Source: Pseudolabrys taiwanensis (GTDB lineage: Bacteria; Pseudomonadota; Alphaproteobacteria; Rhizobiales; Xanthobacteraceae). From it: a stretch of DNA of 64,000 bases. Below the pieces are notes generated by a model. That model did no database searches. It was given only the letters and a program-made list of their open reading frames with translations, and was not told the DNA's origin. A program made the position numbers and the translations under genes. This document shows positions 37,825-53,643 of this stretch, one piece after another (position 1 is the first letter of the stretch; each line of letters opens with the position of its first letter). The stretch spans positions 2,542,001 through 2,606,000 of the forward strand of contig NZ_CP031417.1 of the NCBI RefSeq assembly GCF_003367395.1, given 5' to 3'.

Positions 37825-38970
37825 TCACCGGGCTTTACGCGTGAACAGGCGCCGTACAATGCCGAACAGCATGGCGAAAAGCAGACCGCCACCGATCGGT
37901 CGAGCCGCCACGACCTGCTCGCCCTGGCTGGCGCGTGCGAGGTTGTGAGCGAACTGCACCAGCAAGGCGTCGACCACGCCGGCAACGACAGCCGGACGCC
38001 CGAATTGCACAAGCGGACCACCCAGCCGGTAAGTCAAGTCGAGGGAGAGCTGCGAGGCGTCGTCACCGGCGGCAAGCGCGGCAAAGCGGATGGTGCCGTC
38101 GGCGCGCGAGCGACTGGTGGGATCAGCGCCCTGGCCCGACACCTCGCCGCGATGCGTTTGCTGATCGAAGGCGACACGCGCGGCTCCGCCGAAGCGCGCA
38201 TTGATTGGCCCGATGGCGACCTGAAATGCGCCGGTGACCGTCCCGTCCGGCGACACCTTGTCCAGCGATGCCCCGGGCAGGCAACGCGCGATCGTCGCGA
38301 TGTCCTGCAGGGTCCGCCACAGCGCGGCAGCCGGCACGGGCACGTCGATATGGCGGCTCAGCGTCACGCCATCCGTGACTGGGGCAAACGAGACCGCGCT
38401 CGCCGGTGATGAAGACGGCGCAGGCGACGCAGCCGGCGCAAGGGCGGAAGGCCTCGACTGCTCCAGGACCGGTGCGGCGGGGCGCGCTTTCAACAGGGTG
38501 TTCCGGTGCGTGCCGGCGGCGAGCACGTCGCGGATCGCACCGACGATGCCAACATAGCCGGTGCAGCGGCACAGATTGCCGGCCAGTTCCTCGCGCACGC
38601 GCGCCTCGTCGGCATCGGGCAGCCGCGTCACGATATCGTAGGCCGTCGCCAGCATGCCGGGCGTGCAATAGCCGCATTGCAAAGCGTGATGGCGGGTGAA
38701 GGCGTCGCGCAACTGGCTCATGACCGGATCGTCGTCGAACGACTCGACCGTGCGCACGTCGCTGCCGGCGCAAGCGACCGCGTAATTGATGCAGGAGCGC
38801 ATCGGCCGCCCGTCGACGATCATGGTGCAGGCACCGCAGACGCCGTGCTCGCAGCCGATATGCGTGCCGGTGAGATTGAGCTCCTCGCGCACGAAGTCGG
38901 CGAGATGGGTGCGTGGCGCCACGGCCTTGGTGACGGACGCGCCATTGACGGTGAGATTGACCGAAATCAT
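37825..38970 (-). CDS. Fused [2Fe-2S] subunit and CoxG (SRPBCC) protein of a molybdenum hydroxylase
   Basis: 381 aa. Residues 1 to about 155 are the small subunit of xanthine dehydrogenase-family enzymes with all eight Cys for two [2Fe-2S] clusters (40, 45, 48, 60 and 99, 102, 134, 136). An Ala/Pro/Ser-rich linker (about 165-198) leads to a CoxG/SRPBCC domain (about 201-345: SRHIDVPVPAAALWRTLQDI, then RCLPGASL). The C-terminus (about 355-381) is hydrophobic then basic and could anchor it to the membrane, as for CoxG of Oligotropha. CoxG is normally a separate protein. The ATG overlaps the stop of the upstream FAD subunit by 4 bases. Confidence 0.86.
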   Translation of the reverse strand: MISVNLTVNGASVTKAVAPRTHLADFVREELNLTGTHIGCEHGVCGACTMIVDGRPMRSCINYAVACAGSDVRTVESFDDDPVMSQLRDAFTRHHALQCGYCTPGMLATAYDIVTRLPDADEARVREELAGNLCRCTGYVGIVGAIRDVLAAGTHRNTLLKARPAAPVLEQSRPSALAPAASPAPSSSPASAVSFAPVTDGVTLSRHIDVPVPAAALWRTLQDIATIARCLPGASLDKVSPDGTVTGAFQVAIGPINARFGGAARVAFDQQTHRGEVSGQGADPTSRSRADGTIRFAALAAGDDASQLSLDLTYRLGGPLVQFGRPAVVAGVVDALLVQFAHNLARASQGEQVVAARPIGGGLLFAMLFGIVRRLFTRKAR

Positions 38971-39779
38971 CGCCCGCCCTCCATGGCGATCGCAAACGCG
39001 CGGCGAAGTGCGGTGACGTGCAGCGTGTGAGCCGGCCCGTCGAGTTGCGGCGCGGCCTGCCGAACCGCCTCGGCGGCGGACAAGCGCCCTTCGACAAAGG
39101 CGGCGGGATCGGCGAGCAGCGCCGGCGGCCGTTCGATGGCGCCGATCAGCACGCGCGTCTCGCCGCGGTCCGGATCGATGAGCACCGCAGCGCTCGCTTT
39201 GGCGAAGTCGCCGGCCTTGATGCAGAACTTCCAATAACCCCAGCGCGCCGTGGCGGTGCGCTTGCGTACGCGCACGCCGGCAATAACTTCGCCGACAGCC
39301 AGCACCGTCGCGAGCGGCCCGATGAAGAACGTCTCCAACGGAACGATCCGCTTCGCCCCGTTCGCGACCAGAATGACATCGGCGCCGAGCGCGGTCAGCA
39401 CGTTCACCCAATCGGCCGCCGGATCGGCATGCGCGAGACTGCCGCCGAGCGTGCCGCGATTGCGCACGGCGCGGTAGGCGATGTGCCGCGCCACCGCCGA
39501 CAGCCATCCGGGCGTCGCATCGGGCACGGCGCCGTCTTCGATCTCGGCATGCGTGACGGCGCCGCCGTAGACGATCGCCTCGCCCTCATCGCTGGCGCCG
39601 CGCATGTCCACCGCGCGCGACAGATCGATCAGCATTTGCGGCCGCGCGAGCCGCAGATTGAGCATCGGCCCCAGCGACTGGCCGCCGGCGATGGGCTTGG
39701 TCGCCGCGCCGGAAGTCAGCATGGCGGCCGCGGCGGATGCATCGGCGGCAAAGGAGAAGTCGAACGCGACCGGCTTCAC
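38967..39779 (-). CDS. FAD-binding medium subunit of a molybdenum hydroxylase (CoxM-like)
   Basis: 270 aa. FAD-binding motifs of the family are seen as KPIAGGQSLGPMLNLRLARP (about 28-47) and the second block AYRAVRNRGTLGGSLAHADPAADW (about 96-119). It passes electrons from the FeS subunit to an acceptor. It starts with a GTG that overlaps the large-subunit stop (GTGA) and overlaps the FeS subunit by 4 bases, so all three are coupled. Confidence 0.88.
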   Translation of the reverse strand: MKPVAFDFSFAADASAAAAMLTSGAATKPIAGGQSLGPMLNLRLARPQMLIDLSRAVDMRGASDEGEAIVYGGAVTHAEIEDGAVPDATPGWLSAVARHIAYRAVRNRGTLGGSLAHADPAADWVNVLTALGADVILVANGAKRIVPLETFFIGPLATVLAVGEVIAGVRVRKRTATARWGYWKFCIKAGDFAKASAAVLIDPDRGETRVLIGAIERPPALLADPAAFVEGRLSAAEAVRQAAPQLDGPAHTLHVTALRRAFAIAMEGGR

Positions 39780-42142
39780 GCGAAAGACTCCAGCTTAGCG
39801 GTGCGCGCTTGCGCCAACTTCTCCAGCACGCGTGTCGGCGTCATCGGCAACACATCGAGTTCGGCGCCGAGCCCGGCCAGGGCATCGTTGATGGCATTGG
39901 CAATCGCGGCCGGCGGACCGATGGCGCCACCTTCGCCGATGCCCTTCTGACCGAAGCGGGTGATGGGTGACGGCGTCTCCATATGGTCGATCGCGGCCGC
40001 CGGCACTTCAGGCGCGCCGGGCAGATAGTAGTCGGCGAATGTCGCAGCCAACGGCTGCCCGCGTTCGTCAAAGGGCATTTCCTCGAACAGCGCGGTGCCG
40101 ATGCCCTGCGCCGTACCGCCATAGACCTGGCCTTCGACCACCATTGGATTGATGAGCACACCGCCGTCCTCGACGATCTTGTAATCGAGGATCTCGACCC
40201 CGCCCGTCTCCGTATCGACGGCAACCGTCACCGCATGGCAGGCATAAGAGAACGTGCCGCTGTCGCGCTGCGGCTTGTAGCCCTGCGTGACTTCGAGCCC
40301 GGCCGGATCGACGTCGGCCGGCAGGTCCTGCGGCCGCAGATACCAGACCTTGCCGATATCGGCGATGGCGACTTCGCCGCCGGACGAGCGCGCCATGCCG
40401 CCGCTCAGTTGAATGGTCTGCGGATCCGCCTGAAGCAAATGACCGGCGATCTTGCGCAGCCGCCCGGCCAGCGTTTCGCAGGCTGCGGCCACAGCGCCGC
40501 CCGCCATGACGATGCAACGCGAGCCCCAGGTGCCCGTCGAGTACGGCGTCAGCGCCGTGTCGCCATGCACCACCTTCACACGATGCGGGGCAATGCCGAG
40601 CATCTCGTTAGCGATCTGCGCCAGGGTCGTTTCCAGACCCTGCCCGTGGCTCTGCACGCCGACACGCAATTCGAGACCGCCATCCGGCGTCAGCCGCGCG
40701 GTCGCCTGCTCGAAGCCCGGCACCATGGGAATGCCCCAGCCGGCGTAGACCGACGTGCCGTGCGCGCCCTGCTCGCAATAGATGGACAGGCCCACGCCGA
40801 TGCGGCGGCCGTCCGGCTCGCCCGCGGCCTGCCGCCGCCGCACCGCCGGCAGATCGATCGCCGCCACCGCGCGGTCCAGGCATTCGATGTAGTCGCCGCT
40901 GTCGAAGATCTTGTTGGTGATGTTGACGAACGGCATCTGCTCCGGCCGCACCAGATTTTTGCGGCGGATCTCGTCGGGCGGCAGCTTCAGTTCGCGCGCG
41001 ACGGCATCGAGCAGCACTTCCATCGCATAACAGACGCCGCTGCGCGCCACGCCGCGGAACGGCAGGATCGGCGGCTTGTTGGAGGCAACCGACCAGGTGC
41101 GACAGCGATAGCCGGCGAACTGATAGGGCCCCGGCAGGATGCTGGCGACCTGCGCGGCTTCGAGACAGGCCGAGAAGGGATAGAGAGAGTAAGCGCCGGA
41201 ATCGACGATGGCATCGCAATCGACCGCCAACAGCGTTCCATCGGCGGCGGCATAGCCGGCGATCTCGTAATGATGCTCACGGCAATTGGCATTGCCGGTG
41301 AGATGCTCGTAGCGATCCTCGATCCAGCGTAACGGCCGCTTCAGCTTCATCGCGAGATAAGCAAGGACGACCTCCTCGCACAGCAGCAGGCCCTTGTAGC
41401 CGAAGCCGCCGCCGACATCCGGCGCGACGATGCGCACCATGCCCTGCTCGAGCCCGAGGCACTCGGCCAATCCCGTGCGCACGATGTGCGGCACTTGCGT
41501 CGCCGTGTAGAGAACAACTTGCTGCGCCTGGTTGTCCCAATAGGCGACGACGCCGCGCCCCTCCATCGGCGCCATGCTCTGGCGCGCGGTGCGGAAGGTG
41601 CGCTTCACGCACACCGCGGCATCCTTGATCGCCGCTTCGAAGCCGATATCGACCGCGGTTTCGAGAAACACGTTCTCGGGCCAGTGATCGTGGACGAGCG
41701 GCGCATCCGGCGACCGGGCGCGCGTCATCTCGACCACCGCCGGCAGCTCGTCGAGATCGAGAGTCACGGCTTCGGCGATATCCTCGGCTTCGGCGCGGGT
41801 ATTCGCGACGCAGGCCGCGAGCGGCTCACCAACATGCCGCACCTTCTCGTAAGCGAGCACCGGCTGTATGGACGAACGAAAGCCGGGCAGACCGGAATCG
41901 GCACGAATGCCTTTGACGCCGACGAGATCGGACATCACGAACACGGCGTCTTCCTGACCCGGCGGCTTGGCAACGCCGCGGATGCGCGCATGCGCGAGCG
42001 GACTACGCACGAAAGCCACATCCAGCATGCCGGGCATACGGATATCGGCGACGAAGCGGCCGCGGCCGCGCAGATAGCGATCGTCCTCCAGCCGCGGATG
42101 CGACGATCCAATGCCCTCAGCTTGCGCGACGTTCCGATCCAT
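39776..42142 (-). CDS. Molybdopterin large subunit of a xanthine dehydrogenase/CO-dehydrogenase-type hydroxylase
   Basis: 788 aa catalytic subunit. The Mo-cofactor loop GGGFGYKG is at about 244-251 and the catalytic Glu is E737 in GIGEGGAIG. The active-site loop reads PFRGVARSGVC (about 361-371). It lacks the AYRCSFR loop of true form I CO dehydrogenase, so it is more likely a hydroxylase of an N-heterocycle or aldehyde. Start at 42142 has GGGAAG upstream; a frame to 42199 has no support. It is the first gene of the three-subunit operon, and a 41-bp inverted repeat lies 155 bases upstream. Confidence 0.88.
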   Translation of the reverse strand: MDRNVAQAEGIGSSHPRLEDDRYLRGRGRFVADIRMPGMLDVAFVRSPLAHARIRGVAKPPGQEDAVFVMSDLVGVKGIRADSGLPGFRSSIQPVLAYEKVRHVGEPLAACVANTRAEAEDIAEAVTLDLDELPAVVEMTRARSPDAPLVHDHWPENVFLETAVDIGFEAAIKDAAVCVKRTFRTARQSMAPMEGRGVVAYWDNQAQQVVLYTATQVPHIVRTGLAECLGLEQGMVRIVAPDVGGGFGYKGLLLCEEVVLAYLAMKLKRPLRWIEDRYEHLTGNANCREHHYEIAGYAAADGTLLAVDCDAIVDSGAYSLYPFSACLEAAQVASILPGPYQFAGYRCRTWSVASNKPPILPFRGVARSGVCYAMEVLLDAVARELKLPPDEIRRKNLVRPEQMPFVNITNKIFDSGDYIECLDRAVAAIDLPAVRRRQAAGEPDGRRIGVGLSIYCEQGAHGTSVYAGWGIPMVPGFEQATARLTPDGGLELRVGVQSHGQGLETTLAQIANEMLGIAPHRVKVVHGDTALTPYSTGTWGSRCIVMAGGAVAAACETLAGRLRKIAGHLLQADPQTIQLSGGMARSSGGEVAIADIGKVWYLRPQDLPADVDPAGLEVTQGYKPQRDSGTFSYACHAVTVAVDTETGGVEILDYKIVEDGGVLINPMVVEGQVYGGTAQGIGTALFEEMPFDERGQPLAATFADYYLPGAPEVPAAAIDHMETPSPITRFGQKGIGEGGAIGPPAAIANAINDALAGLGAELDVLPMTPTRVLEKLAQARTAKLESFA

Positions 42143-42296
42143 CTCGCGTGTTCTTCCCGACGTCGTTACCGAGATTCGAAGCTGCGAAGAGGTTCGCAAG
42201 GGTTATGCCAACCGGCGCATTTCCCGATCCGCCCAAATCCGCCAGGACGGCGCCGGCGCATGTCTACAATCCGGGCAGACAGCGACGTCCGTTTGG

Positions 42297-42337
42297 GCAT
42301 TCGTCCTTGTACTGATGATTGCTGTACGGACGAATGC
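42297..42337. promoter_or_regulatory. Inverted repeat upstream of the molybdenum hydroxylase operon
   Basis: GCATTCGTCC (42297-42306) and GGACGAATGC (42328-42337) are perfect 10-bp arms; an inner GTAC pair adds symmetry. It may be a regulator site, possibly for the MarR protein at 37270, or a leader hairpin. The remaining gap from 42143 to 42448 shows no gene. Confidence 0.45.
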
Positions 42338-42448: not shown

Positions 42449-42464
42449 TGGCGCTCCCTAGGGG
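42449..42464. repeat. attL-like core: displaced 3' end of tRNA-Glu
   Basis: Sixteen bases identical to the CCA, discriminator, acceptor 3' side and start of the T-arm of tRNA-Glu(CUC), in the same orientation as at 53568-53583. Beyond them the sequence diverges (TCCCGG instead of ACTCGA), so this is a fragment and not a second tRNA. Confidence 0.75.
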
Positions 42465-42571
42465 TCCCGGAAGCCTGGTTTAGAAGGCAGAATGTTATCG
42501 GTTTTCCCGAGACAACTCAAACATTTGCTGCACTAAGAAACTTTGGCGGCTTTGGAAAAAAAACTACAAGT

Positions 42572-42598
42572 GTTGTACGCTGTGTTGGACGTCTCAAA
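42572..42598 (+). repeat. Left arm-type repeat of the island
   Basis: Matches 53471-53497 in 22 of 27 aligned positions, same direction, with the exact shared piece TGTTGGACGT. Each copy is preceded by TTGGCGG (42543-42549 here, 53456-53462 there), and the surrounding 42480-42600 is AT-rich. A role as integrase arm site is inferred from position and pairing. Confidence 0.55.
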
Positions 42599-42692
42599 CC
42601 GTTTTGGCGGCCTCTCCCTGGGCGGAAGCAGTCAATTGATAGGTCAGCGTCCGGCGGCGCGCGCGGCTACTACGCCGGGCTCGACCAAGCCT

Positions 42693-42893
42693 TTAAGGCG
42701 TGTGGACAACCATCGGATCGGCGACGCCGACCGTTTCTCTATCCGAACTTGCCTCGAGCGCCTGCACTTTACGCTCGAGTTCGTCGATCCGCCCAGCCAA
42801 AGAGCGGGCGTAGCTGTAGACTAGGTCGTCTTCGCTCTCCATGACGGCCGCAAATTCCAACATCTTATTCCAGGCTCTCTTGATCATGTTCAT
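42693..42893 (-). CDS. Small coiled-coil protein downstream of the RND pump
   Basis: 66 aa, acidic, with a heptad-like stretch (LAGRIDELERKVQALEASSD). It begins 10 bases after the pump stop with AAGGA 7 bases before the ATG, which supports a real gene co-transcribed with the pump. There is no membrane segment or known domain. It is the outermost gene at the left end of the island. The function is unknown. Confidence 0.6.
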   Translation of the reverse strand: MNMIKRAWNKMLEFAAVMESEDDLVYSYARSLAGRIDELERKVQALEASSDRETVGVADPMVVHTP

Positions 42894-42903
42894 GATGAGT
42901 TCC

Positions 42904-45900
42904 TTAACGAACCATTGAATGACCGGGGATATGTGCGACTGCGCTGCTCAGGCCGGCACTCTCGGCGTCGTTCGCCTTCTTTGACGATTGCTCCGGCGTC
43001 TTGATCCGGAACCAGACGGCATAGAGTGCCGGCAGGAACAACAGGATCAGCGCTGTACCCGCAGCGGTGCCGCCGATCAGCGTGTAAGCCATCGATCCCC
43101 AGAAAACGGAGTGCGTGAGCGGGATGAAGGCTAGTACGGCCGCCAGCGCCGTCAGGATAACGGGACGGGTTCGTTGCACCGTCGCTTCTATGACCGCGTG
43201 ATAATCATCGAGGCCGGCCCGCCGGTTCTCCTTGATCTGTTCGGTGAGGATCAGCGTGTTGCGTATCAGGATGCCAGCGAGGCCGATCAAACCAAGGATC
43301 GCGTTAAAGCCGAACGGCTGATGGAACAGCAGCAAGACGGGCACGGCGCCGACGAGGCCCAGGGGCGCGGTCAGCATGACCATCGCCATGGTCGAGAACG
43401 ATCGCACCTGTAGCATCACGATGATCAGCATGGCGGCAATCATCGTCGGGAAGACCACGGCGAGTGCATCGTTGGCCTTCTTTGCTTCCTCGATCGAACC
43501 GCCCATCTCGACGCGATAGCCTTGAGGCAGTTTGGCGATGAGGGGTTGGAGTGCCGCCATCACCTGCATGGAGACTTCCGGTGGCTGCGTCGCCTCGTCG
43601 ATATCCGAACGGATCGTGATCACGGGCGTGCGGTCCCGCCGCTTCATGATCGGCTCCTCGAAGCGAACTTCAGAATGACCGATCTGATCGAGGGGAATGC
43701 GCCGCCCGTCGCGGCTGATCAGCGAGAAATCCTTCAACCGCGCAGGGTCGAGACGCTCCGCCCCGGCGCTACGCGCCACGACCGCGACATTGCGGATATC
43801 CTCCCGCACCTCGGTAACGTTGAAGCCCGTCAGGAGGAACTGCAACTGCTGCGCAACTTCCGACGAGGACAAGCCGATCAGGTTGAGGCGATCCTGGTCG
43901 GGGACGAAGCGAAGTGTCGGGACAAGGTTGCCCCAATCGCGGTTGGCCTGGCGTACATCCGGAACACCTCGCATGATCTCCAGCGCTTCATGCGACAAAG
44001 CATAGAGCTTGTCGGCGTCCGGACCCATCAGACGAAATTCGACCGGGAATGGGGTGTAGGGACCGAACACAAGCTGGGTCACGCGCACGGAGGCTTCAGG
44101 AGCGAGCCCATGCGCGACCGCCTGCCGCATCCGGAGCTTGAGCGCTTCGCGCGCCTCGGCATCCGGCGTCAGGACCACGATTTTGGCAAAGGCCGGATCG
44201 GGAAGTTCAGGCGCCATCGCGAGGAAGAAGCGCGGCGCACCTTGACCGATATAGCTCGTGACAATACTGGCCTCGGGCTGGTTGTGGAGCCAGGTCTCAA
44301 GCTTGGCGACGGCCGCGGTCGTCGCTTCGATGCTCGAACCCTCCGGCATGCGAACTTCGACCAGCACTTCCGGGCGATCCGACGTGGGGAAGAACTGCTG
44401 CTTCACAGCTCCCATCCCGACGCCAGCGAGCAGAAAGAGACCCACCACTATAGAGACGGTTGCAAACTTCCGGCGAACGGCGAATTTGATCACATCACGA
44501 AGCCGCCGGTAGTTCGGCGTGTCATAGATCGCGTGATGTCCTCCACTCACCGGCTTGATGTTCGGCAGCATGGTCACGCCAAGATAGGGTGTGAAGAACA
44601 CCGCAACGAACCAGGAGACGATCAGCGCAAAGCCTACGACCCAGAAGATGTTGCCGGCGTACTCGCCTGCCGTTGAACGTGCAAAGCCCACCGGCAAGAA
44701 GCCAGCAATCGTGACCAGCGTGCCGGACAACATCGGCGCAGCAGTGTGGCTCCAGGCGTAGGCAGCGGCACGAACGCGATCCATGCCCTCTTCCATTTTT
44801 ACGACCATGACCTCGATTGCGATGATGGCGTCGTCCACTAAGAGGCCGAGCGCGAGGATAAGCGCGCCGAGAGTGATGCGGTCGAAGAAGCGGCCGGTGA
44901 CTGCCATGATGACGAAGACTACCGCGAGGGTGAGCGGCACGGCCGCGGCCACAACAAGGCCTTCACGCCAGCCGAGGCTAAGAAGGCTGACCAGCAGCAC
45001 GACGCCGAGCGCCATCGCGAATTTCAGCATGAATTCGCCGACGGCAGAGGAGATATTGACCGCTTGGTCCGTTACCTTGGTCAGGGAAATGCCCAGCGGC
45101 AGCGTTGCTGCGATGGCGGTTGTCCGTGCTTCCAGAGCTTTGCCCAGCTCAAGCCCGTTCCATCCCGTTTGCATCACGGCGGCGAGGACGATGGCTTGCT
45201 CGCCTTCGTGACGGATCAGGAATGTGGCCGGGTCTTCGTAGCCGCGGCGCACCGACGCGATATCCGAAAGCTTGAGCGTACGCCCGTTGGCGACAATCGG
45301 TGTGTCGGCGATCGCCTGTATCCCATTAAAGGCGCCGTCGAGACGAATGAAGACCTGCGGCCCCTTAGTATCGACAGACCCGGCCGGCATCACGGCATTC
45401 TGGCGTTGTAGGGCGGAAAAAATATCTTGTGGCGAGACACCGAGGGTCGCAAGGCGCGCGTAAGACAGCTCGATGAAGATGCGCTCGGGACGCTCACCGA
45501 GAATGTTGACTTTCTTGACGCCCGGGACGTGCAGCAACTCCTGGCGAATACTTTCCGCTTGCCGAGTGAGGTCGCGCATCGGCATGCCTTTTGCCTTCAA
45601 GGCGTAGAGCGCAAAGCTGACATCGGAATATTCGTCGTTGACGAAGGGGCCCAGGACACCCGGCGGCAAGTTTCGCGCTTCGTCGCCGACTTTCTTGCGC
45701 GCCTGATAAAACTCTTCCTCCACCGCTGACGGCGGTGTGCTGTCTTTCAGCGTTACAGTGGTCAGCACCAGACCCGGCCGCGTCATCGTCTCGACGCGGT
45801 CGTAATAGGTCAGCTCCTGCATGCGCTTTTCAAGCGGCTCTGCAACGAGGTCCTGCATTTCCTTCGCTGTCGCGCCCGGCCATGCAGCCGATATGGTCAA

Positions 45901-46038
45901 AACCTTGATCGAAAAGGACGGATCTTCGGCGCGGCCGAGATTGAGGAAAGCGATCGCGCCGCCGATCGAGAATAAAATAATGAAGAAAAGCGTGACCGAC
46001 CGCTCGCGAACTGCCAAGGCCGAAAGATTAAAATTCAT
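42904..46038 (-). CDS. RND efflux transporter (AcrB-like, HAE/MexK type)
   Basis: 1044 aa, full length with 12 membrane segments and two periplasmic loops. The proton-relay aspartates are in segment 4 (LALGLLVDDAIIAIE, about 395-409). The N-terminus (NFNLSALAVRERSVTLFFIILFSIGG) and FLNLGRAEDPSFSIK are typical of the VexK/MexK-like branch of exporters for organic compounds. It is 4 bases overlapped with the adaptor gene. No outer-membrane factor is in the island, so it must borrow a TolC-like channel. Confidence 0.9.
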   Translation of the reverse strand: MNFNLSALAVRERSVTLFFIILFSIGGAIAFLNLGRAEDPSFSIKVLTISAAWPGATAKEMQDLVAEPLEKRMQELTYYDRVETMTRPGLVLTTVTLKDSTPPSAVEEEFYQARKKVGDEARNLPPGVLGPFVNDEYSDVSFALYALKAKGMPMRDLTRQAESIRQELLHVPGVKKVNILGERPERIFIELSYARLATLGVSPQDIFSALQRQNAVMPAGSVDTKGPQVFIRLDGAFNGIQAIADTPIVANGRTLKLSDIASVRRGYEDPATFLIRHEGEQAIVLAAVMQTGWNGLELGKALEARTTAIAATLPLGISLTKVTDQAVNISSAVGEFMLKFAMALGVVLLVSLLSLGWREGLVVAAAVPLTLAVVFVIMAVTGRFFDRITLGALILALGLLVDDAIIAIEVMVVKMEEGMDRVRAAAYAWSHTAAPMLSGTLVTIAGFLPVGFARSTAGEYAGNIFWVVGFALIVSWFVAVFFTPYLGVTMLPNIKPVSGGHHAIYDTPNYRRLRDVIKFAVRRKFATVSIVVGLFLLAGVGMGAVKQQFFPTSDRPEVLVEVRMPEGSSIEATTAAVAKLETWLHNQPEASIVTSYIGQGAPRFFLAMAPELPDPAFAKIVVLTPDAEAREALKLRMRQAVAHGLAPEASVRVTQLVFGPYTPFPVEFRLMGPDADKLYALSHEALEIMRGVPDVRQANRDWGNLVPTLRFVPDQDRLNLIGLSSSEVAQQLQFLLTGFNVTEVREDIRNVAVVARSAGAERLDPARLKDFSLISRDGRRIPLDQIGHSEVRFEEPIMKRRDRTPVITIRSDIDEATQPPEVSMQVMAALQPLIAKLPQGYRVEMGGSIEEAKKANDALAVVFPTMIAAMLIIVMLQVRSFSTMAMVMLTAPLGLVGAVPVLLLFHQPFGFNAILGLIGLAGILIRNTLILTEQIKENRRAGLDDYHAVIEATVQRTRPVILTALAAVLAFIPLTHSVFWGSMAYTLIGGTAAGTALILLFLPALYAVWFRIKTPEQSSKKANDAESAGLSSAVAHIPGHSMVR

Positions 46039-47159
46039 TTGCGCACCTGATTTTGCTGGCCGGCGACGGACGAGACCTTGGTGCCTTCCTTAAGCAGATG
46101 CGCCCCAAGCGCGACGATCGGTTCGCCGGGGGTTAAGCCCTGGACTACAGCCGTTTCTTCGCCGAGTTCTTTGAGGACGACGTTCTTGAAGTGAACCGTC
46201 GAGCTTGAGCGATCGAACGCCCAAACGCCGGTTCGCTGGCCGTCATTCAAGATGGCGCCCATAGGGATTGCGATATCCGTGTCGGCTTGTGTGTTCGCAA
46301 TTCGGATGGTTACGGTCGCGCCGAGCGGCGCCGCGGCAGCGGCGCCTTCGAGAACGTAACGCGCTTCGTACGTGCGGGTTTGCGGGTCGGCGGCATTCGA
46401 TATCTGACGGAGACGCGCGGGCCAGCGGCGAGCGCCATCACCATATACCGTGGCTTCCGCACTGGACCCGATGGCGGGCCGAACAGTTTCTGGCAACGCC
46501 AGTAGAGCTTCACGCGGGCCCGCTTGGGCGAGTTGAACGACGGTTTGGCCAGCAACGACGACTTGGCCGGGCTCGCCCGAAGTCGCGACCACGATGCCGT
46601 CGGCATCGGCGACCAAAGTGGAATAGCCCGCTTCATTACCAGCGACGCGTGCGTCGGCTTCCGCCGCGGCCAATTGCGCTTCGGCGGTATCGAGCGCTGC
46701 CTTGGCCTGTTCGTAACGCTGCGTGGAGGCGCCAAGGCCATCCTTCGAGAGAATGGCGTAGCGCTTTTCATCGTTCCGCGCCTGAACGGCGACCGCAGTT
46801 GCCGCCATTACAGCGTTCCGCTTCGCGGTCAAGACGAGGCGTAAATCCGTATCGTCGATCCGCATCAACGGCTGACCGACGGTCACCTCTTGGCCGACAT
46901 CGACGAGGCGTTGGACAATCTTGCCGGCGACGCGAAAGCCAAGATTGCTCTGGACCCGCGCCGCAATACTTCCTGTGAAGGCCCGCTCGGCTCCGACGCT
47001 CCGACCGGCCGATGCCAGTCGAACGACTGGGACATCGTTTCTGGGGTCATTTTGGGCAGCCGCTTTTTCACCCGAAGCCGATCCAATCAGCAGGATGGCG
47101 ACGCCGCCTGCGAACAAAACCGCCGCTCCACCAAGCACATAGCGCCATTTCCGATTCAT
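46035..47159 (-). CDS. RND efflux periplasmic adaptor (HlyD/AcrA family)
   Basis: 374 aa. A membrane anchor lies at about 7-28. A lipoyl-like hairpin begins at ARVQSNLGFRVAGKIVQRLVDVGQEVTVGQPLMRID (about 66-102), a helical hairpin follows, and the second half-lipoyl reads ADADGIVVATSGEPGQVV. AGGAGACGG lies before the ATG. Its promoter is shared with the divergent TetR gene and contains inverted repeats likely bound by that TetR. Confidence 0.88.
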   Translation of the reverse strand: MNRKWRYVLGGAAVLFAGGVAILLIGSASGEKAAAQNDPRNDVPVVRLASAGRSVGAERAFTGSIAARVQSNLGFRVAGKIVQRLVDVGQEVTVGQPLMRIDDTDLRLVLTAKRNAVMAATAVAVQARNDEKRYAILSKDGLGASTQRYEQAKAALDTAEAQLAAAEADARVAGNEAGYSTLVADADGIVVATSGEPGQVVVAGQTVVQLAQAGPREALLALPETVRPAIGSSAEATVYGDGARRWPARLRQISNAADPQTRTYEARYVLEGAAAAAPLGATVTIRIANTQADTDIAIPMGAILNDGQRTGVWAFDRSSSTVHFKNVVLKELGEETAVVQGLTPGEPIVALGAHLLKEGTKVSSVAGQQNQVRK

Positions 47160-47195
47160 TTTCCGTCTCCTGGACAGGCTGGGGAGGCAGCCTTA

Positions 47196-47249
47196 TTTAG
47201 ATTGCATTCGGCATCTAATATCGGATATAGATTACGAACGCAATCTAAA
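47196..47249. promoter_or_regulatory. TetR operator region for the efflux pump
   Basis: TTTAGATTGC (47196-47205) and GCAATCTAAA (47240-47249) are perfect 10-bp inverted arms, and GCATCTAATA (47211-47220) is a weaker third copy. They fill the 102-base gap between the pump adaptor and the TetR gene. The right arm touches the ribosome site of tetR, which suits autorepression. Confidence 0.65.
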
Positions 47250-47261
47250 AGGAGGTCCGTC

Positions 47262-47840
47262 ATGCGCGTTAGTCGGGAGCAAGCAGAGAAAAATCGCCAA
47301 GGCGTCATCGACACCGCGAGCCATCTGTTTCGCGAAAAAGGCTTCGACGGGGTGGGCCTCGTGGAGCTCATGGAGAGCGCGGGGCTGACGAAGGGCGGCT
47401 TCTACAAACAGTTCGAGTCCAAGGAAGATCTCGCCGCGCTCGCCTCGCGCCGGTCCATGGAAATGGCGATGGAGCGATGGATCCGTGTCATTGCCAGGCG
47501 GCCCGATGCGCCGCTCGACGCGATGATCGATCTGTATCTTTCGCCGGGGCATCGCGCTGACAAAGGCGATGGTTGCCCGCTGGTTGCTCTCGGCTCCGAT
47601 GCGGCCCGTCAAGGCGCGGACGTCAAAGAGTCATTCGAGTTCGGCGTGAAGAAGCACCTTGAACTGTTGGGCGACGTCATTCTCGGCGGCTCCGCGGAGG
47701 TTCGCGCAGAGCTTGCCCCTGCGGTGCTCTCGCTTCTCGTCGGTGCGCTTACCTTGTCGCGCATGGTCAATGACGATCGCCTCGCCTTGACCTTTCTCAG
47801 CGCTGCGGCCGCGCAAGTCCGCAGCATCACCAAGGCTTGA
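47262..47840 (+). CDS. TetR/AcrR family regulator of the island pump
   Basis: 192 aa. The helix-turn-helix reads DTASHLFREKGFDGVGLVELMESAGLTKGGFYKQFESKEDL in pieces at about 16-58 (GGFYKQFESK typical). The ATG at 47262 has AAAAGGAGG upstream; longer frames are not real. It is divergent from the pump and lies 11 bases before the thiolase gene, so it is the first gene of the plus-strand enzyme operon and probably represses both directions. Confidence 0.9.
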   Translation: MRVSREQAEKNRQGVIDTASHLFREKGFDGVGLVELMESAGLTKGGFYKQFESKEDLAALASRRSMEMAMERWIRVIARRPDAPLDAMIDLYLSPGHRADKGDGCPLVALGSDAARQGADVKESFEFGVKKHLELLGDVILGGSAEVRAELAPAVLSLLVGALTLSRMVNDDRLALTFLSAAAAQVRSITKA

Positions 47841-47851
47841 GGAGACACTCC

Positions 47852-49045
47852 ATGTCGACGCTGCACGATCCGATCGTCATTGTTTCCGCCGTACGCACGC
47901 CGCTGGGCCGCTTCCTCGGCGACCTCTCGCCGCTCGCCGCGCATGAGCTGGGCGCGCATGTCATCCGCTCGGCGGTCGACCGCGCTAAGCTCGCGCCCGA
48001 CCGCATCGACGAAGTGCTGATGGGTTGCGTCCTGCCCGCAGGCCAAGGACAGGCGCCTGCGCGTCAGGCGGCTCGCGGCGCGGGGCTACTTGATGCAACC
48101 GGCGCAACGACGGTCAATAAAGTCTGCGGCTCGGGCATGAAAGCGACGACGCTCGCCCACGATCTATTGCTCGCGGGATCGGTCGATGTCGCGGTATCGG
48201 GCGGCATGGAATCGATGTCGAATGCGCCCTACTTGCTTGCGAAAGCCCGCAGCGGCTACCGTGTTGGTCATGACCGCGTCCTTGACCATATGATGATGGA
48301 TGGCCTTGAGGATGCCTACGAGCCCGGTCGCGCGATGGGGGACTTCGGCGAAGCGGCAGCTGAGGCCTATCAGTTCACGCGCGCCGATCAGGACGCTTAT
48401 GCGGTCGAAACACTGACGCGCGCGCGCCATGCCATCGAAAGTGGCGCCTTCAAGGATGAGATCGTACCGGTCTCGATCGGCATAAAAGGCGGCCAGAAGC
48501 TCGTCGACACCGATGAGCATCCGTTGAAAGTGTCGCCTGAAAAAATCCCGACATTGAAGCCGGCCTTCCGTGCCAACGGCACGATCACGGCTGCGAGTGC
48601 CTCGGCCAATGCCGATGGCGCCGCCGCCTTGGTGTTGACGCGCCGGTCCATCGCCGAGCGGGATGGCTTGCCTATCCTCGCAGAGATCAAGGCGCACGCT
48701 ACCCATAGTCAGGCGCCGGCCTGGTACACGACCGCGCCGATCCCCGCGATCCGCAAAGTGCTGGCGAAGGCCAACTGGCGTGTGCCCGATGTCGACCTAT
48801 TCGAAATCAACGAGGCCTTCGCCGTGGTGCCGATGGCGGCTGCGAAAGATCTCGGCATCGCGCGCGACAAACTAAACGTCAATGGCGGCGCCTGCGCGGT
48901 CGGTCATCCGATCGGCGCGACCGGCGCGCGCCTGATCGTCACCTTGCTACATGCCATGCAGCATCGAAACCTCACGAAAGGCGTTGCCGCTCTTTGCATC
49001 GGCGGTGGAGAAGCGACCGCGGTCGCCATCGAGCGGACCCATTAA
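47852..49045 (+). CDS. Thiolase (acetyl-CoA C-acetyltransferase family)
   Basis: 397 aa. All catalytic residues are visible: Cys92 in NKVCGSGM, His352 in GHPIGATG and Cys382 in LCIGGGEA, in the order and spacing of thiolases. It could condense two acetyl-CoA or cleave a beta-ketoacyl-CoA. ATG 47852 follows AGGAGA. It starts 11 bases after tetR and 25 bases before the ketosynthase gene, so it belongs to a regulated operon, not a housekeeping PHB locus (no phaB next to it). Confidence 0.88.
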   Translation: MSTLHDPIVIVSAVRTPLGRFLGDLSPLAAHELGAHVIRSAVDRAKLAPDRIDEVLMGCVLPAGQGQAPARQAARGAGLLDATGATTVNKVCGSGMKATTLAHDLLLAGSVDVAVSGGMESMSNAPYLLAKARSGYRVGHDRVLDHMMMDGLEDAYEPGRAMGDFGEAAAEAYQFTRADQDAYAVETLTRARHAIESGAFKDEIVPVSIGIKGGQKLVDTDEHPLKVSPEKIPTLKPAFRANGTITAASASANADGAAALVLTRRSIAERDGLPILAEIKAHATHSQAPAWYTTAPIPAIRKVLAKANWRVPDVDLFEINEAFAVVPMAAAKDLGIARDKLNVNGGACAVGHPIGATGARLIVTLLHAMQHRNLTKGVAALCIGGGEATAVAIERTH

Positions 49046-49070
49046 ACCGGCTCAACAGGAAGAAACGTAC

Positions 49071-50342
49071 ATGCGGCGCGTGGTTGTGACTGGCATGGGG
49101 GCCGTCAGCCCCCTTGCCGCAGACGTCGAAACGTCCTGGCAGAGGCTTCTCGAAGGTCGCTCGGGCATCCGCGCCCTGCCGGACGACATGGTGCGCGACC
49201 TTCCGGTCAAGATCGGCGGTACCGTCCCTGATCTCATCGACGACCCAGTCCACGGCTTCAATCCTGACGTCGTATTATCCGTCAAGGAGCAGCGGAAAGT
49301 CGACCGCTTCATCCTGTTCGCCCTGGCCGCTGCCGACGAAGCGCTGAAACAATCTGGATGGACGCCGTCGTCGGAGATCGAGCGTGAGCGCGCCGCAACC
49401 ATTATTGCTTCCGGAATCGGCGGCTTCCCGGCCATTACCGAGGCGGTTCGCACCGTAGATGGACGCGGACCACGGCGGCTATCGCCCTTCACGGTGCCCT
49501 CGTTCCTCGTCAATCTGGCTGCCGGTCACGTATCGATACGGCACGGATTGAAAGGCCCCCTCGGCGCGCCAGTCACCGCATGTGCCGCAGGCGTGCAGGC
49601 CATCGGCGACGCGGCGCGGCTCATCCGAACCGGCGAAATCGATTTGGCCGTGTGCGGCGGTACGGAAGCCTGCATAAACTCCGTATCGCTGGGCGGTTTT
49701 GCGGCGGCTCGCGCCTTATCGACCGGTTACAACGACAATCCCACGGCAGCGTCTCGGCCCTTCGATCTGGGACGTGATGGCTTCGTGATGGGCGAAGGCG
49801 CTGGCCTGCTGGTCATCGAAGCGCTCGACCACGCCGTGGAGCGCGGGGTTGTTCCCATCGCCGAAATCGTCGGCTACGGCACGACGGCAGATGCCTACCA
49901 CATCACATCCGGCCCCGAAGACGGCTCGGGCGCGCGGCGTGCCATGCAGATCGCGATCGCTCAAGCTGGGATCGAGCCGGCTGAAATCGGTCACCTCAAT
50001 GCCCACGCCACATCGACCCCCGTGGGTGACCGTGGCGAACTGGCCGCGATCAAATCGGTGTTTGACGCGTCCACTGTCGCAGTCAGCGCCACAAAATCTG
50101 CGACCGGCCACCTTTTGGGTGCGGCCGGCGGACTTGAAGCCATCTTCACGATCCTCGCACTACGCGATCAAATCGCACCACCGACGCTCAACTTAAGCAG
50201 ACCGGATGCGGCCGGAGCCGGAATCGATTTCGTCGCCAACACCGCCCGGTCGATTGAAACAGACTACGCAATCTCCAACGGCTTCGGCTTTGGCGGCGTC
50301 AATGCCAGCGTGATCTTTCGCCGCTGGCAGGAGGCCGCCTGA
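49071..50342 (+). CDS. Beta-ketoacyl synthase, FabF-like (KAS II)
   Basis: 423 aa. The active site Cys171 (TACAAGVQA), His312 (NAHATSTP) and His347 (SATGHLLG), with the Lys in SATKSATG, are intact, so it should be active. The N-terminal VVVTGMGAVSPLA is typical of FabF. It sits without an acyl carrier protein or other FAS genes, between a thiolase and a ProA-like enzyme in a TetR-controlled operon. It might be a special condensing enzyme or a spare copy that tolerates an inhibitor of the main FabF; both are inference. ATG 49071 follows AGGAAG. Confidence 0.88.
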   Translation: MRRVVVTGMGAVSPLAADVETSWQRLLEGRSGIRALPDDMVRDLPVKIGGTVPDLIDDPVHGFNPDVVLSVKEQRKVDRFILFALAAADEALKQSGWTPSSEIERERAATIIASGIGGFPAITEAVRTVDGRGPRRLSPFTVPSFLVNLAAGHVSIRHGLKGPLGAPVTACAAGVQAIGDAARLIRTGEIDLAVCGGTEACINSVSLGGFAAARALSTGYNDNPTAASRPFDLGRDGFVMGEGAGLLVIEALDHAVERGVVPIAEIVGYGTTADAYHITSGPEDGSGARRAMQIAIAQAGIEPAEIGHLNAHATSTPVGDRGELAAIKSVFDASTVAVSATKSATGHLLGAAGGLEAIFTILALRDQIAPPTLNLSRPDAAGAGIDFVANTARSIETDYAISNGFGFGGVNASVIFRRWQEAA

Positions 50343-50345
50343 GCC

Positions 50346-51620
50346 ATGGAAGCGATTTACGACCTCGACGCGGAAAATCCGGCGACAGCCTGGCTGACCG
50401 AGGCGGCCGATCATGCCCGCGCAGCCGTGCGGCGGCTCGCGCGCACGACGCTCGCTGCAAGAAATGACGCGCTCTTGGCAATGGCTCGAGCGGTCTTCGA
50501 CAAACGCACGGACATCCTTGAGGCCAATGCGCGCGACCTCGCAGCCTTTTCGGGCGCCGCGCCTTTTCGTGACCGCCTCACGCTCACGCGGCAACATATC
50601 GATACGATGGTATCCAGTCTTCACGCGGTGGCCGCGCTACCCGATCCACTTCGAGTGCTTGACAGCTGGACACGGCCCAACGGCCTGCGCATCGAACGCA
50701 TTGCATCGCCCATCGGCGTACTCGGAATCATTTTTGAGAGCAGGCCAAATGTCGGCCTCGATGCCGCGGCTCTCGCCGTCAAGTCCGGCAATGCCGTCAT
50801 ATTGCGCGGCGGTCGCGAGGCCCGCGCAACATCGGCCGCGCTCCACCGCGCCATCGCGGCAGGGCTTGCCGAAGCCGGGTTGCCGCCAGCAGCCGTTCAA
50901 ATGGCCCCGACCCCGGATCGCACCTTTGTCGCCGCCATGCTGGCTGCCGAAGGGCAGATCGACCTTCTCATACCGCGCGGCGGGCGCTCCCTCGTGGAAC
51001 GAGTCCGGCGCGAGGCGCGTGTCCCGGTGCTGTCCCACGCCGACGGGCTTTGCCACACCTACATCCATCGCGCCGCTGATATCGCGATGGCAACGGAGGT
51101 CCTTGTCAATGCGAAGCTTCGGCGCACCAGCGTCTGCGGCGCGACCGAGACATTGCTCATCGATTCCGAGATCGCAAACGCTAGCTTACCCGGCATTTTG
51201 CGCGATCTGGCGGACCGGGGGTGCGTATTTCGTGGCGACGTCCGCGCCCGCGCGTTGTTTCCGGAGATGGTTCCGGCCACAGAGATGGATTTCTGGACCG
51301 AGTGGCAGGATGCGATCCTCTCCGTGGCCGTCGTCGACGGCCTTGAAGCCGCCGTGAGCCACATCAACCGCTATGGCAGCGGTCATACCGATGCGATCCT
51401 TACAGAGGATGAAACCGCGGAGCGGCACTTCATGGCGGAGGTCGACAGCGCGGTGACGATCTGGAACGCCTCAACGCAGTTTTCAGATGGAGGTGAGTTC
51501 GGTTTTGGCGCGGAGATCGGGATCGCAACCGGTCGCGTCCACGCGCGAGGTCCGATCGGAGCGGAACAGCTGACTACCCCGCGCTACAACGTCATTGGAA
51601 GCGGCCAGGTGCGTCCGTAG
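50346..51620 (+). CDS. proA: Glutamate-5-semialdehyde dehydrogenase (ProA)-like
   Basis: 424 aa, normal ProA length. The catalytic Cys264 is in RRTSVCGATETLL, close to the ProA consensus, and AVILRGGREARATSAAL and STQFSDGGEFGFGAEIGIATGRVHARGP are strong family blocks. ProA reduces gamma-glutamyl phosphate to the semialdehyde in proline synthesis. Here it lies without proB, 3 bases after a ketosynthase gene, with AGGAGG inside that gene's end. It may be a second copy recruited to reduce another acyl substrate, or a stress (proline) function. Its real substrate is not certain. Confidence 0.85.
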   Translation: MEAIYDLDAENPATAWLTEAADHARAAVRRLARTTLAARNDALLAMARAVFDKRTDILEANARDLAAFSGAAPFRDRLTLTRQHIDTMVSSLHAVAALPDPLRVLDSWTRPNGLRIERIASPIGVLGIIFESRPNVGLDAAALAVKSGNAVILRGGREARATSAALHRAIAAGLAEAGLPPAAVQMAPTPDRTFVAAMLAAEGQIDLLIPRGGRSLVERVRREARVPVLSHADGLCHTYIHRAADIAMATEVLVNAKLRRTSVCGATETLLIDSEIANASLPGILRDLADRGCVFRGDVRARALFPEMVPATEMDFWTEWQDAILSVAVVDGLEAAVSHINRYGSGHTDAILTEDETAERHFMAEVDSAVTIWNASTQFSDGGEFGFGAEIGIATGRVHARGPIGAEQLTTPRYNVIGSGQVRP

Positions 51621-51666
51621 TGCGCGTCATCGTCCGTAGCCAATGAGCAAAGCGGGCTTTTCGGCG

Positions 51667-52251
51667 TCAAGGCGCGTCGGCGGATGCGAACAGGGTGCGG
51701 ACGGCGGATTTAGCCGCCGCGAATGCTTTGGTGTCGCCTCTTATCTGCGACAGAAGCACCGCACCCTGGAAGATGATGTTGATCTGGCGGCCCAAGGCTT
51801 CGGCTCGCGCAAAGCCGGATTTGACGCAGAGGCTGATAAACGCTTGCTCGACGTAATTCGCCGCTGCCTTACCCTTCGCGGCAATGCCAGCGTGTTTACC
51901 GATGTATTCCTGTGCCGCTTTTAGTCCAAGACAGCCACGCGCAGGGTACTCTTCCAACATTTCCTTACGCGCATCGAACAGCCCAATGATCTGCTCGCGC
52001 GGGTCTCTACCCGATGCGGCAACACGATCAAAAAGCCGTTCGCTCATCCATACCGCATAATGCGCGAGCACCGCTTCGATCAGTTCCTCTTTTGACGCAA
52101 AATACTTATAGAGCGTCCGCTTCGAAATGCCTGTTTCGGCGAGAATTTTGTCGACACCGGTTGCATGAAACCCGCCGTCGTAAAAGTGATCGAAGGCCCA
52201 CCCGACGATCTCCTGCCGCTTCGCCTCGCCGCGATTTGCCTGCTCCATCAT
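51667..52251 (-). CDS. TetR family regulator of the SDR gene
   Basis: 194 aa. HTH is seen as ATGVDKILAETGISKRTLYKYFASKEELIEAVLAHY (about 31-66, in pieces). The C-terminal domain is of the AcrR/TetR_C type with CLGLKAAQEYIGKHA. It is divergent from the SDR at 52395; the 143-base gap between them carries two identical-architecture palindromes. It most likely represses itself and the SDR and responds to an electrophile or drug, as in YxaF/SDR pairs; that is inference. Confidence 0.9.
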   Translation of the reverse strand: MMEQANRGEAKRQEIVGWAFDHFYDGGFHATGVDKILAETGISKRTLYKYFASKEELIEAVLAHYAVWMSERLFDRVAASGRDPREQIIGLFDARKEMLEEYPARGCLGLKAAQEYIGKHAGIAAKGKAAANYVEQAFISLCVKSGFARAEALGRQINIIFQGAVLLSQIRGDTKAFAAAKSAVRTLFASADAP

Positions 52252-52304
52252 CCCTGAACCGCTTTGCTGCCTTCAGTAACAATGTACCCGATCCCATTGA
52301 CAAT

Positions 52305-52353
52305 GTAAACCGTTCTGTTTACTCCTATGCCGTAGGTAAACTAGACAGTTTAC
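52305..52353. promoter_or_regulatory. Double TetR operator GTAAAC-N6-GTTTAC
   Basis: Two copies of GTAAAC-N6-GTTTAC, at 52305-52322 and 52336-52353, have centres 31 bp apart (three helical turns) between the TetR and SDR starts. The arms are perfect in both while the spacers differ, as expected of true operators. Confidence 0.75.
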
Positions 52354-52394
52354 ATGCTGAAAATCGGTTCAGCTGGTTTCGATGGAGATTGAAA

Positions 52395-53114
52395 ATGTCC
52401 CTTACTGGAAAAACTGTCCTCGTGTCGGGTGCGACCCGGGGTTTGGGTGCGGCCACCGTCCGTGCTCTGCTCAAAGCCGGTGTCAAAAAAATCTATGCCG
52501 GCGCACGGCGAGTCGATGCACTGCCCGACTTCAAGGATGCGCGAGTCGTCCCGCTTCAACTCGATGTGACGAGCGAGGCTTCGGTCAGCGCAGCGGCGCT
52601 TGCGGCATCCGACGTCGAGGTGCTGCTGAACAACGCAGGCACCATGCAGTTTGGCGATGTGCTTTCGAGTGCACGAGCCACCATCGACACCGACTTCGAC
52701 ACGAACTTCTTCGGCACGCTCCGTGTCGTGCGCGCTTTTGCGCCGACTTTGGTCAAGCGGGGATCCGGCATCATCGCAAATGTCGTCAGCGTCGTCGGCC
52801 TCGCGCCTGTTCCTGTCCTCGGCGGCTATTCGGCCTCGAAGGCCGCGCTGCATTCGCTGACACTTGCTCTGCGCGGCACGCTCGCAAAATCGGGCATTAC
52901 GGTCATCGGCATCTATCCCGGACCGCTCGACACAGAACTCGCAAAGAACCTTCCACTCGCCAAGGCCAGCCCGGATGACGCGGCGCAAAAGGTGATTGAA
53001 GGCCTTGAAGCAGCCACGCCTTACATCTTTCCCGATCCGACCGCTCAGCAAATCGAATATCTCTGGGCTCACGACGGCAGCAAGCTCGAAGCCGCCATGC
53101 AGGCTGGGGGCTGA
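52395..53114 (+). CDS. SDR family oxidoreductase
   Basis: 239 aa short-chain dehydrogenase. The cofactor loop SGATRGLG (about 11-18), LLNNAGT (about 78-84) and the Ser, Tyr, Lys active site (VVSVVG, YSASK) are present. The start at 52395 has GGAG 8 bases upstream. It is the last gene of the island on the right, with a 12-bp stem-loop after it. TetR-SDR pairs of this type are common in proteobacteria; the substrate is unknown. It could act as the ketoreductase for the thiolase/ketosynthase pair, but no sequence evidence ties them. Confidence 0.88.
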   Translation: MSLTGKTVLVSGATRGLGAATVRALLKAGVKKIYAGARRVDALPDFKDARVVPLQLDVTSEASVSAAALAASDVEVLLNNAGTMQFGDVLSSARATIDTDFDTNFFGTLRVVRAFAPTLVKRGSGIIANVVSVVGLAPVPVLGGYSASKAALHSLTLALRGTLAKSGITVIGIYPGPLDTELAKNLPLAKASPDDAAQKVIEGLEAATPYIFPDPTAQQIEYLWAHDGSKLEAAMQAGG

Positions 53115-53202
53115 CTCAAAACGCCGATGCATGTAGCGGGCCTAGAAAAAATGTAAGATTTCTTCCTGGACGCCTAATTCAACGACACTTGAAAGCGCAG
53201 TT

Positions 53203-53232
53203 GATACGGTGAGCACTCCGGCTCACCGTATC
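53203..53232 (+). terminator. 12-bp stem-loop after the SDR gene
   Basis: GATACGGTGAGC and GCTCACCGTATC form a perfect 12-bp stem with a 6-base loop, 88 bases after the SDR stop. No T-run follows. The rest of the region from 53115 to 53567 has no gene; the arm repeat and the tRNA are annotated separately. Confidence 0.5.
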
Positions 53233-53470
53233 GCTTACGTTCATCGCTTACCTGCGTAGGGTCAGAGCCGAGGCGTAACGCACTCGTAGCCGCGAAGGAG
53301 CCTTACCAAAGCGCGCCATCATCCACGATGGGTGCTGTGCTGCCTGGAATAACTATTTTCCAGCCCGCAGCAATCGCCGAAACATCGCAAGGTCTTTTCT
53401 GCCCCTAACGCTTCAAGCTTGCAGCAACCGGTATTGGCGAAACGAGCCCTCAAAATTGGCGGACTTTTAG

Positions 53471-53497
53471 GTTGGATGCTTTGTTGGACGTTTTAAA
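53471..53497 (+). repeat. Right arm-type repeat of the island
   Basis: Second copy of the 27-bp repeat at 42572-42598 (22 of 27 positions equal, same direction), with GTTGGA twice 12 bases apart. It lies 71 bases inside the right core repeat. In an integrase-borne island the integrase gene would usually lie here, next to the tRNA; it is absent. Confidence 0.55.
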
Positions 53498-53567
53498 AGC
53501 GCAAAGAGAAATTCTATTTTAGAAACAGCGACTTAGAAAAACGTGGCGGGGGGGCATGAGCGCAGGG

Positions 53568-53643
53568 TGGCGCTCCCTAGGGGACTCGAACCCCTGTTTT
53601 CGCCGTGAGAGGGCGACGTCCTGGGCCGCTAGACGAAGGGAGC
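53568..53643 (-). tRNA. tRNA-Glu (CUC anticodon)
   Basis: On the minus strand a full cloverleaf can be folded: acceptor GCTCCCT with AGGGAGC, discriminator G and encoded CCA, D-arm TCTAGCGGCCCAGGA, anticodon loop CTCTCAC with anticodon CTC, and T-arm CAGGGGTTCGAGTCCCCT. 76 nt. Its 3' end is the island insertion site and is repeated at 42449-42464. Confidence 0.95.

Follow-up and report, generated by a model that had tools for sequence, protein, structure and literature searches.

An 11.1-kb island at the 3' end of a tRNA-Glu gene in Pseudolabrys taiwanensis was almost certainly inserted between paired attachment (att) sites by a tyrosine integrase of the subfamily formed by Int-G008, Int-G131 and Int-G190, as judged from the sequence of its two ends. 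The island lies in the window, the whole stretch of 64,000 nucleotides analysed here (contig NZ_CP031417.1, positions 2,542,001 to 2,606,000), and carries no integrase gene. It probably represents a decayed remnant resembling a cis-mobilizable element (CIME), stranded after loss of its integrase and mobilisable only by an incoming one.

Core and arm-type sites at both ends of the island

Each end of the island holds a copy of the core TGGCGCTCCCTAGGGG. The two copies are identical at 16 of 16 positions, and a search of both strands of the 5.59-Mb genome returned exact matches at the two island ends only. The right copy forms the 3' end of a tRNA-Glu(CTC) gene. Just inside each core lies a 27-bp arm-type site; the two arms agree at 22 of 27 positions and run in the same direction. 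Read from the left, the region consists of host DNA, the distal core, a 107-bp spacer, the left arm (+), the eight cargo genes, the right arm (+), a 75-bp spacer, the second core and the tRNA gene (-). Both repeats had been described in an earlier note on this DNA, and both hold up. Each arm is a tandem of the 10-bp unit GTTGKAYGYY with a 12-bp period, the units being GTTGTACGCT/GTTGGACGTC in one 27-mer and GTTGGATGCT/GTTGGACGTT in the other.

Among 298 pairs of 236-bp stretches of the window, none scored 22 matches in the best ungapped 27-bp comparison, and a single pair scored 21. Mononucleotide shuffling of the two end stretches, repeated 300 times, gave at most 19 matches over 27 bp. A degenerate pattern of both arm copies, scanned with up to three mismatches, found the two island ends and no other place in the whole genome, so that the repeat is not common elsewhere.

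Cognate integrases in relatives

Recognition of the 10-bp tandem unit in the 27-mers allowed cognate integrases to be traced. A search of 396 genomes with GTTGKAYGYYNNGTTGKAYGYY found the tandem arm in seven, including the source genome, against 2 of 396 for the reversed pattern used as control. Three of the seven carry the motif twice on one contig: the source genome, G131 and G190; the two copies are separated by 57 kb in G131 and by 44 kb in G190. In G131, a tRNA-Glu(TTC) and a 14-bp core precede the left arm; the right arm lies 11 bp upstream of the gene for a 443-residue tyrosine integrase. The G190 integrase is 49% identical to that of G131 and starts 12 bp from its arm; the core at this end could not be clearly identified. 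The motif in G361, from another bacterial family, was seen with neither integrase nor core and may be a chance match.

The G131 and G190 integrases score 24.3 and 20.8 bits with Pfam Phage_integrase, just under the cut-off of 27.1, and an alignment of the integrases contains conserved segments along the whole length, which presumably include the catalytic motifs. Nine proteins of each element were scanned. Those of G131 include a lambda-type portal protein and tail or baseplate proteins, and among those of G190 several belong to terminase, portal, head, tape-measure and primase types; by this gene content, the 57-kb and 44-kb elements are prophages. A further integrase, in G008 from the same genus as the source, is 46% identical to that of G131 and occupies the corresponding tRNA-Glu(CTC), oriented like the island, with an arm that has one mismatch to the stricter pattern GTTGGAYGYTTTGTTGGAYGYT.

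With the G131, G190 and G008 integrases as queries, relatives at E 1e-20 were found at 22 places in 18 of 199 genomes. The exact arm pattern lies just upstream at four of the 22 places, which are the top four by score, and the fifth-scoring place (L205) has a diverged copy. Weaker relatives lie at tRNA-Ser, -Arg, -Gly and others, and the weaker places L191-L194, L199 and L200 showed no arm motif at up to five mismatches. The arm stands 11-14 bp upstream of the start of seven full-length integrases, those of G131, G190, G008, G094, G075 (contig C82), G206 and the viral contig L229; for an eighth, on contig C2 of G075, a diverged arm (3-4 mismatches) lies 13 bp upstream. In G098, an integrase relative with one in-frame stop lies near a tRNA-Ser (G098:C3:243522-244820). 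An arm on this contig (287693-287714) is 43 kb away, and no arm with up to five mismatches was seen beside the integrase itself.

Three stretches of viral contigs matched in a pattern scan. One of them, in the 24-kb contig L229, carries a joined attP (the phage form of the attachment site) in the order arm, 63 bp, core GCTAGGGAGCGCCA, 78 bp, arm and integrase; the integrase is 88% identical to that of G190. Opened at its core and inserted at a tRNA 3' end, this attP would give the order found in the window, with an integrase gene expected on the minus strand to the left of the right arm. The relatives place its start 11-14 bp left of that arm. The right core-arm distance is 75 bp in the window, 78 bp in L229, 85 bp in G131 and 178 bp in G008. 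Integrase-bearing elements with the same core and arms, for which the earlier note had proposed a search, thus exist in G131, G008 and L229, and the position of the arms beside integrases, together with the joined attP, supports its reading of the repeats as core and arm-type sites of a tyrosine integrase.

Further features of these sites were observed. The core contains a palindrome (CCCTAGGG in its window form), and the G131 element has the opposite orientation to the tRNA from those of G008 and the window; the palindrome may permit both orientations. A 14-bp sequence a few bases inside the arm is identical in the window (53451-53464) and in the viral contig L228 (6858-6871), and may be a binding site or a chance match. 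An arm of the same family lies directly behind tRNA-Ser(GCT) in the viral contig L230 and in L254 (G423), which suggests this tRNA as a second target of the arm group.

No integrase in the island and no subfamily member found in the genome

Eleven places in the genome match PF00589 (Phage_integrase), and none of them is inside the island. With the three queries, the source genome yielded no subfamily member at E 1e-20; the nearest PF00589 place, L011, is 29% identical over about 130 residues (E 2e-5). The claim that the integrase is missing from the island therefore holds, and since no subfamily integrase was found in the genome either, the island would at present be stuck. A candidate remnant at the left end of the island (E 0.036 over 34 residues) lies away from the expected place and was rejected as unconvincing.

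The tRNA-Glu site in relatives

The earlier note had predicted an empty site in which the sequence left of 42449 joins the tRNA directly. Among the relatives examined, no such junction was found; G030, G012 and G013 have a conserved gene there instead. In G030, 50 bp separate it from the 3' end of the tRNA; in G012 and G013, the intervening DNA measures about 1 and 3 kb. By similarity, G005 and G029 have this gene as well. It is probably DUF971. The copy in the source genome (G000:C1:2510870-2511218) has the same orientation and lies outside the window, 84 kb left of the tRNA. A tRNA-Val(CAC) is found about 5 kb further left, and G029 also has a tRNA-Val(CAC) on that side. As the conserved gene is 84 kb from the tRNA here and 50 bp from it in G030, the island is only the tRNA-proximal 11.1 kb of a larger insertion, with 84 kb of extra or rearranged DNA at the site.

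This 84-kb stretch (G000:C1:2511219-2595567, that is, window positions 1-53567 and 31 kb further left) contains no PF00589 integrase. A third core that would mark its left end was sought on the plus strand with up to three mismatches and none was convincing; besides the two known cores, the only match was one with three mismatches inside the ProA gene. A xanthine-dehydrogenase-like operon left of 42449 has relatives of 82-83% identity in G008 and G026, away from the tRNA, and detectable similarity of the DNA upstream of the operon stops near 42335. Twenty tRNA loci were fetched, of which L116, L123 and L128 hold less than 400 bp beyond the tRNA 3' end and the other 17 hold 2.4-15.7 kb. At these 17 loci, neither the xanthine-dehydrogenase-like gene (39776-42199) nor the island gene set follows the tRNA. 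Two weak matches turned up at the fetched loci, to a thiolase at 22% in L120 and, in L131, to 37825-39507 at 33%.

Decayed and solitary sites

Of 391 genomes from the bacterial family, 17, the source genome among them, carry the stricter arm form when one mismatch is allowed (control 0). Across a 397-genome sample of the order, the source genome gave the only match. The left arm of the window deviates from this form at three positions and is therefore not listed by the search.

Several of these arms stand beside broken integrases. G488 (L245-L246) has two same-strand arms 18 kb apart, each next to a truncated integrase N-terminus (48 and 26 residues), G454 has an N-terminus of about 70 residues beside an arm, and G015 a short one, recognised by eye. 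Such N-termini show that integrase loss recurs in this group. Besides the source genome, three genomes have two sites on one contig: those of G131 and G190 enclose an integrase, and those of G488 are the two broken-integrase ends. One of the G488 arms lies near a tRNA-His.

Other ends are solitary. G500 has a single tRNA-core-arm end, and within 86 kb beyond it no second arm (up to five mismatches), core or integrase was found. The sites of G548, G423 and G454 (contig C135) are solitary in the stretch examined, which for G423 and G548 ends just 6-9 kb past the site. In L247, L250, L251, L252 and L256 the arm occurs without the tRNA-Glu core. A second integrase-less island with paired ends was not found, in a search that is weak because its pattern misses the left arm of the window, so that a pair like this one would appear solitary.

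In L249 (G454), a tRNA-Glu(CTC) at 5604-5678 is followed by an arm 4.9 kb away, at 10545, with no integrase found; by eye, the sequence near this arm is similar to that beside the G190 integrase end. A recurring GGAGCGGGTGAAG-like sequence, or its complement, was likewise seen by eye near the arms of L247, L250, L251, L252 and L256, and is perhaps the core of another tRNA.

Cargo of the island

Eight bacterial genes and one open reading frame of 66 residues, the latter with no family match, lie in the 11.1 kb between the two cores (Table 1). The eight genes encode a pump, regulators and enzymes, and a family scan found no conjugation, mobilisation or relaxase gene among them. When the nine island proteins were compared with PHROGs, six matched families of unknown function or auxiliary-metabolic families and three matched none. 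The G+C content in 2-kb windows is 0.594-0.644 in the island, slightly below the left (0.622-0.692) and right (0.629-0.667) flanks, with overlapping ranges.

The cargo resembles clusters that exist outside the island. G058, from another family of the same order, has a cluster (L213, 9912-16148) in which permease (81% identity), adaptor (62%), TetR regulator (56%) and FabF (76%) keep the island order, without the thiolase. In the 18.5 kb examined around it, neither arm motif nor core nor tRNA was found. The TetR-SDR pair (SDR, short-chain dehydrogenase) is also present in five other genomes (L044-L048).

Table 1. Features of the island and its integration site (window positions; RND, resistance-nodulation-division).
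Feature	Position	Strand	Evidence
Distal core, attachment-site repeat of tRNA-Glu 3' end	42449..42464	+	16/16 to 53568-53583; two exact genome copies
Left arm-type site, units 42572-42581 and 42584-42593	42572..42598	+	22/27 to right arm; fits GTTGKAYGYYNNGTTGKAYGYY
RND efflux permease gene (cargo)	42904..46038	-	NCBIfam RND permease families, all under cut-off; 81% identical protein in G058
RND periplasmic adaptor gene (cargo)	46035..47159	-	TIGR01730 above cut-off
TetR-type regulator (cargo)	47256..47840	+	NCBIfam TetR matches under cut-off; 56% in G058
Acetyl-CoA C-acyltransferase (thiolase) gene (cargo)	47837..49045	+	TIGR01930 above cut-off
Beta-ketoacyl-ACP synthase II (FabF) gene (cargo)	49071..50342	+	TIGR03150 above cut-off; 76% in G058
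Glutamate-5-semialdehyde dehydrogenase (ProA) gene (cargo)	50346..51620	+	NF001221 above cut-off
TetR-type regulator (cargo)	51667..52251	-	NCBIfam TetR matches under cut-off; adjoins SDR gene in L044-L048
Short-chain dehydrogenase (SDR) gene (cargo)	52377..53114	+	NF006118 above cut-off
356-bp gene-free gap, relatives' integrase place	53115..53470	.	tblastn with three integrases: best E 0.41
Right arm-type site, units 53471-53480 and 53483-53492	53471..53497	+	fits GTTGKAYGYYNNGTTGKAYGYY; zero mismatch to GTTGGAYGYTTTGTTGGAYGYT
tRNA-side core	53568..53583	+	16/16 to distal core
tRNA-Glu(CTC), integration target	53568..53643	-	ARAGORN

Origin of the island

The anatomy of the ends makes it almost certain that a tyrosine integrase of the Int-G008, Int-G131 and Int-G190 subfamily inserted the 11.1 kb into the 3' end of tRNA-Glu(CUC). 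By analogy with known integrases, it would bind the tandem 10-bp arm units flanking the tRNA-3'-end core, and integration would produce host-core-arm at the left end and arm-core-tRNA at the right end, matching the window. The integrase gene, expected on the minus strand directly to the left of the right arm, would subsequently have been lost, leaving efflux and metabolic cargo between an intact core pair and a recognisable arm pair. Excision of the island, or its use as a target for a neighbour, would require the arrival in the cell of a phage or island that brings a cognate integrase; the island may thus be mobilisable in trans.

Several observations weigh against this account. The gap where the integrase is expected holds no remnant, not even an N-terminus, as judged by tblastn, unlike the decayed sites of relatives, which keep integrase N-termini. 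The left core-arm distance of 107 bp compares with 61-63 bp at the G131, G190, L228 and L229 ends. Weaker relatives of the integrase occupy tRNA-Glu at L194, L199 and L200 without the arm motif. Finally, the nine island proteins gave no match to structural or replication families of phages in PHROGs, so that, if the ancestor was a prophage, the loss must have taken everything except the cargo.

The clean gap is also what would be seen in a true non-autonomous element, one that never had or needed an integrase, was moved in trans by the integrases of temperate phages that share this attP, and perhaps travels along with these phages. The paired cores and arms fit such an element, and cognate integrases occur at the same tRNA in the same genus (G008) and in the G131 and G190 prophages. 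Against it, the left arm has drifted from the family form at three positions, and the search described above, weak as it is, yielded no second island of this kind; we regard this origin as a serious but less likely candidate. The earlier note had left the integrase as either lost or acting in trans. Its absence from the island stands, and, with broken integrases found elsewhere, a non-autonomous element is not distinguished from plain loss. It is rather doubtful that a cargo-only island with no integrase, phage or satellite gene uses a temperate-phage att pair to be integrated, excised and perhaps carried by any phage with an integrase of this subfamily.

The size of the insertion raises another possibility, namely that the two ends are att remnants of different insertions framing other DNA, for example an older end of the 84-kb array and a younger one. 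With 84 kb at the tRNA site here and 50 bp in G030, more than one event is likely; solitary ends occur in relatives, and the left core-arm spacing is unusual. We nevertheless consider this improbable, as the ends agree in their core at all positions, in arm direction and in the order predicted by a single attP, and the genome has just two exact copies of the core. Taken alone, the 22 of 27 match could arise by rare coincidence between repeats in ordinary chromosomal DNA, whereas none of the real-sequence pairs reached it, and the specificity of the motif and its position beside integrases make chance untenable. With integrase-adjacent copies of the motif in relatives, coincidence was ruled out as an explanation, and we give it almost no weight. 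Integrase loss from an inserted element thus remains the origin that we favour.

Relation to known elements

According to one study, CIMEs derive from integrative and conjugative elements (ICEs) or integrative and mobilizable elements (IMEs), those found lie in tandem with them, and cargo-bearing CIMEs measure 1.2-13 kb (PMC7563491). Like the CIMEs described there, the island keeps flanking att sites, has no integrase or transfer genes, carries metabolic cargo and falls within this size range (PMC7563491). In contrast to that description, the two att relatives of the island that were examined are prophages, and the 84-kb array holds no PF00589 integrase. Att sites on both sides, with no integrase gene and no conjugation or mobilisation genes between them, make the island CIME-like in appearance; we do not file it as a CIME, since it may or may not descend from an ICE or IME. 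It has neither the integrase nor the relaxase of an IME.

The likeness to the G131 and G190 prophages and to the viral contig L229 lies in the arm motif, the tRNA-Glu core and the order of the att sites. All three carry an integrase, and G131 and G190 also phage structural genes, whereas the island has the core and paired arms with neither an integrase by the arm nor phage genes. Phage satellites, such as the phage-inducible chromosomal islands (PICIs) and similar elements, are defined by an integrase of their own and helper-exploiting genes, and the described families normally carry their own integrase. The island has neither of these and no satellite genes. It resembles satellites, as treated in a review, in that it would rely on the machinery of another element (PMC11389934). 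The same review names clusters of attC sites lacking integron integrases (CALINs) and miniature inverted-repeat transposable elements (MITEs) as hitchers without integrase or transposase (PMC11389934).

In a study on Dehalococcoides, 15 islands at ssrA lack an integration module, and the authors suggest that they might be cis-mobilizable elements (PMC3146451). As in the window, one RNA-gene site is common to these islands and to integrase-bearing relatives; they differ in that a serine recombinase and ssrA are involved there, and tyrosine-integrase arms and tRNA-Glu here (PMC3146451). Islands at transfer-messenger RNA (tmRNA) genes that carry their own integrase are described in another report (PMC12595487). 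A literature search on integrase-less islands or satellites returned no paper, which does not show that there are none.

Integrase-less islands can readily be overlooked, or their limits guessed. In this case, the arm-type sites indicate which integrase subfamily made the insertion, and the arm is present in 17 of 391 genomes of the bacterial family. If the ends of the island still react, this would mean that metabolic genes lacking any mobility gene can ride on the attachment sites of phages.

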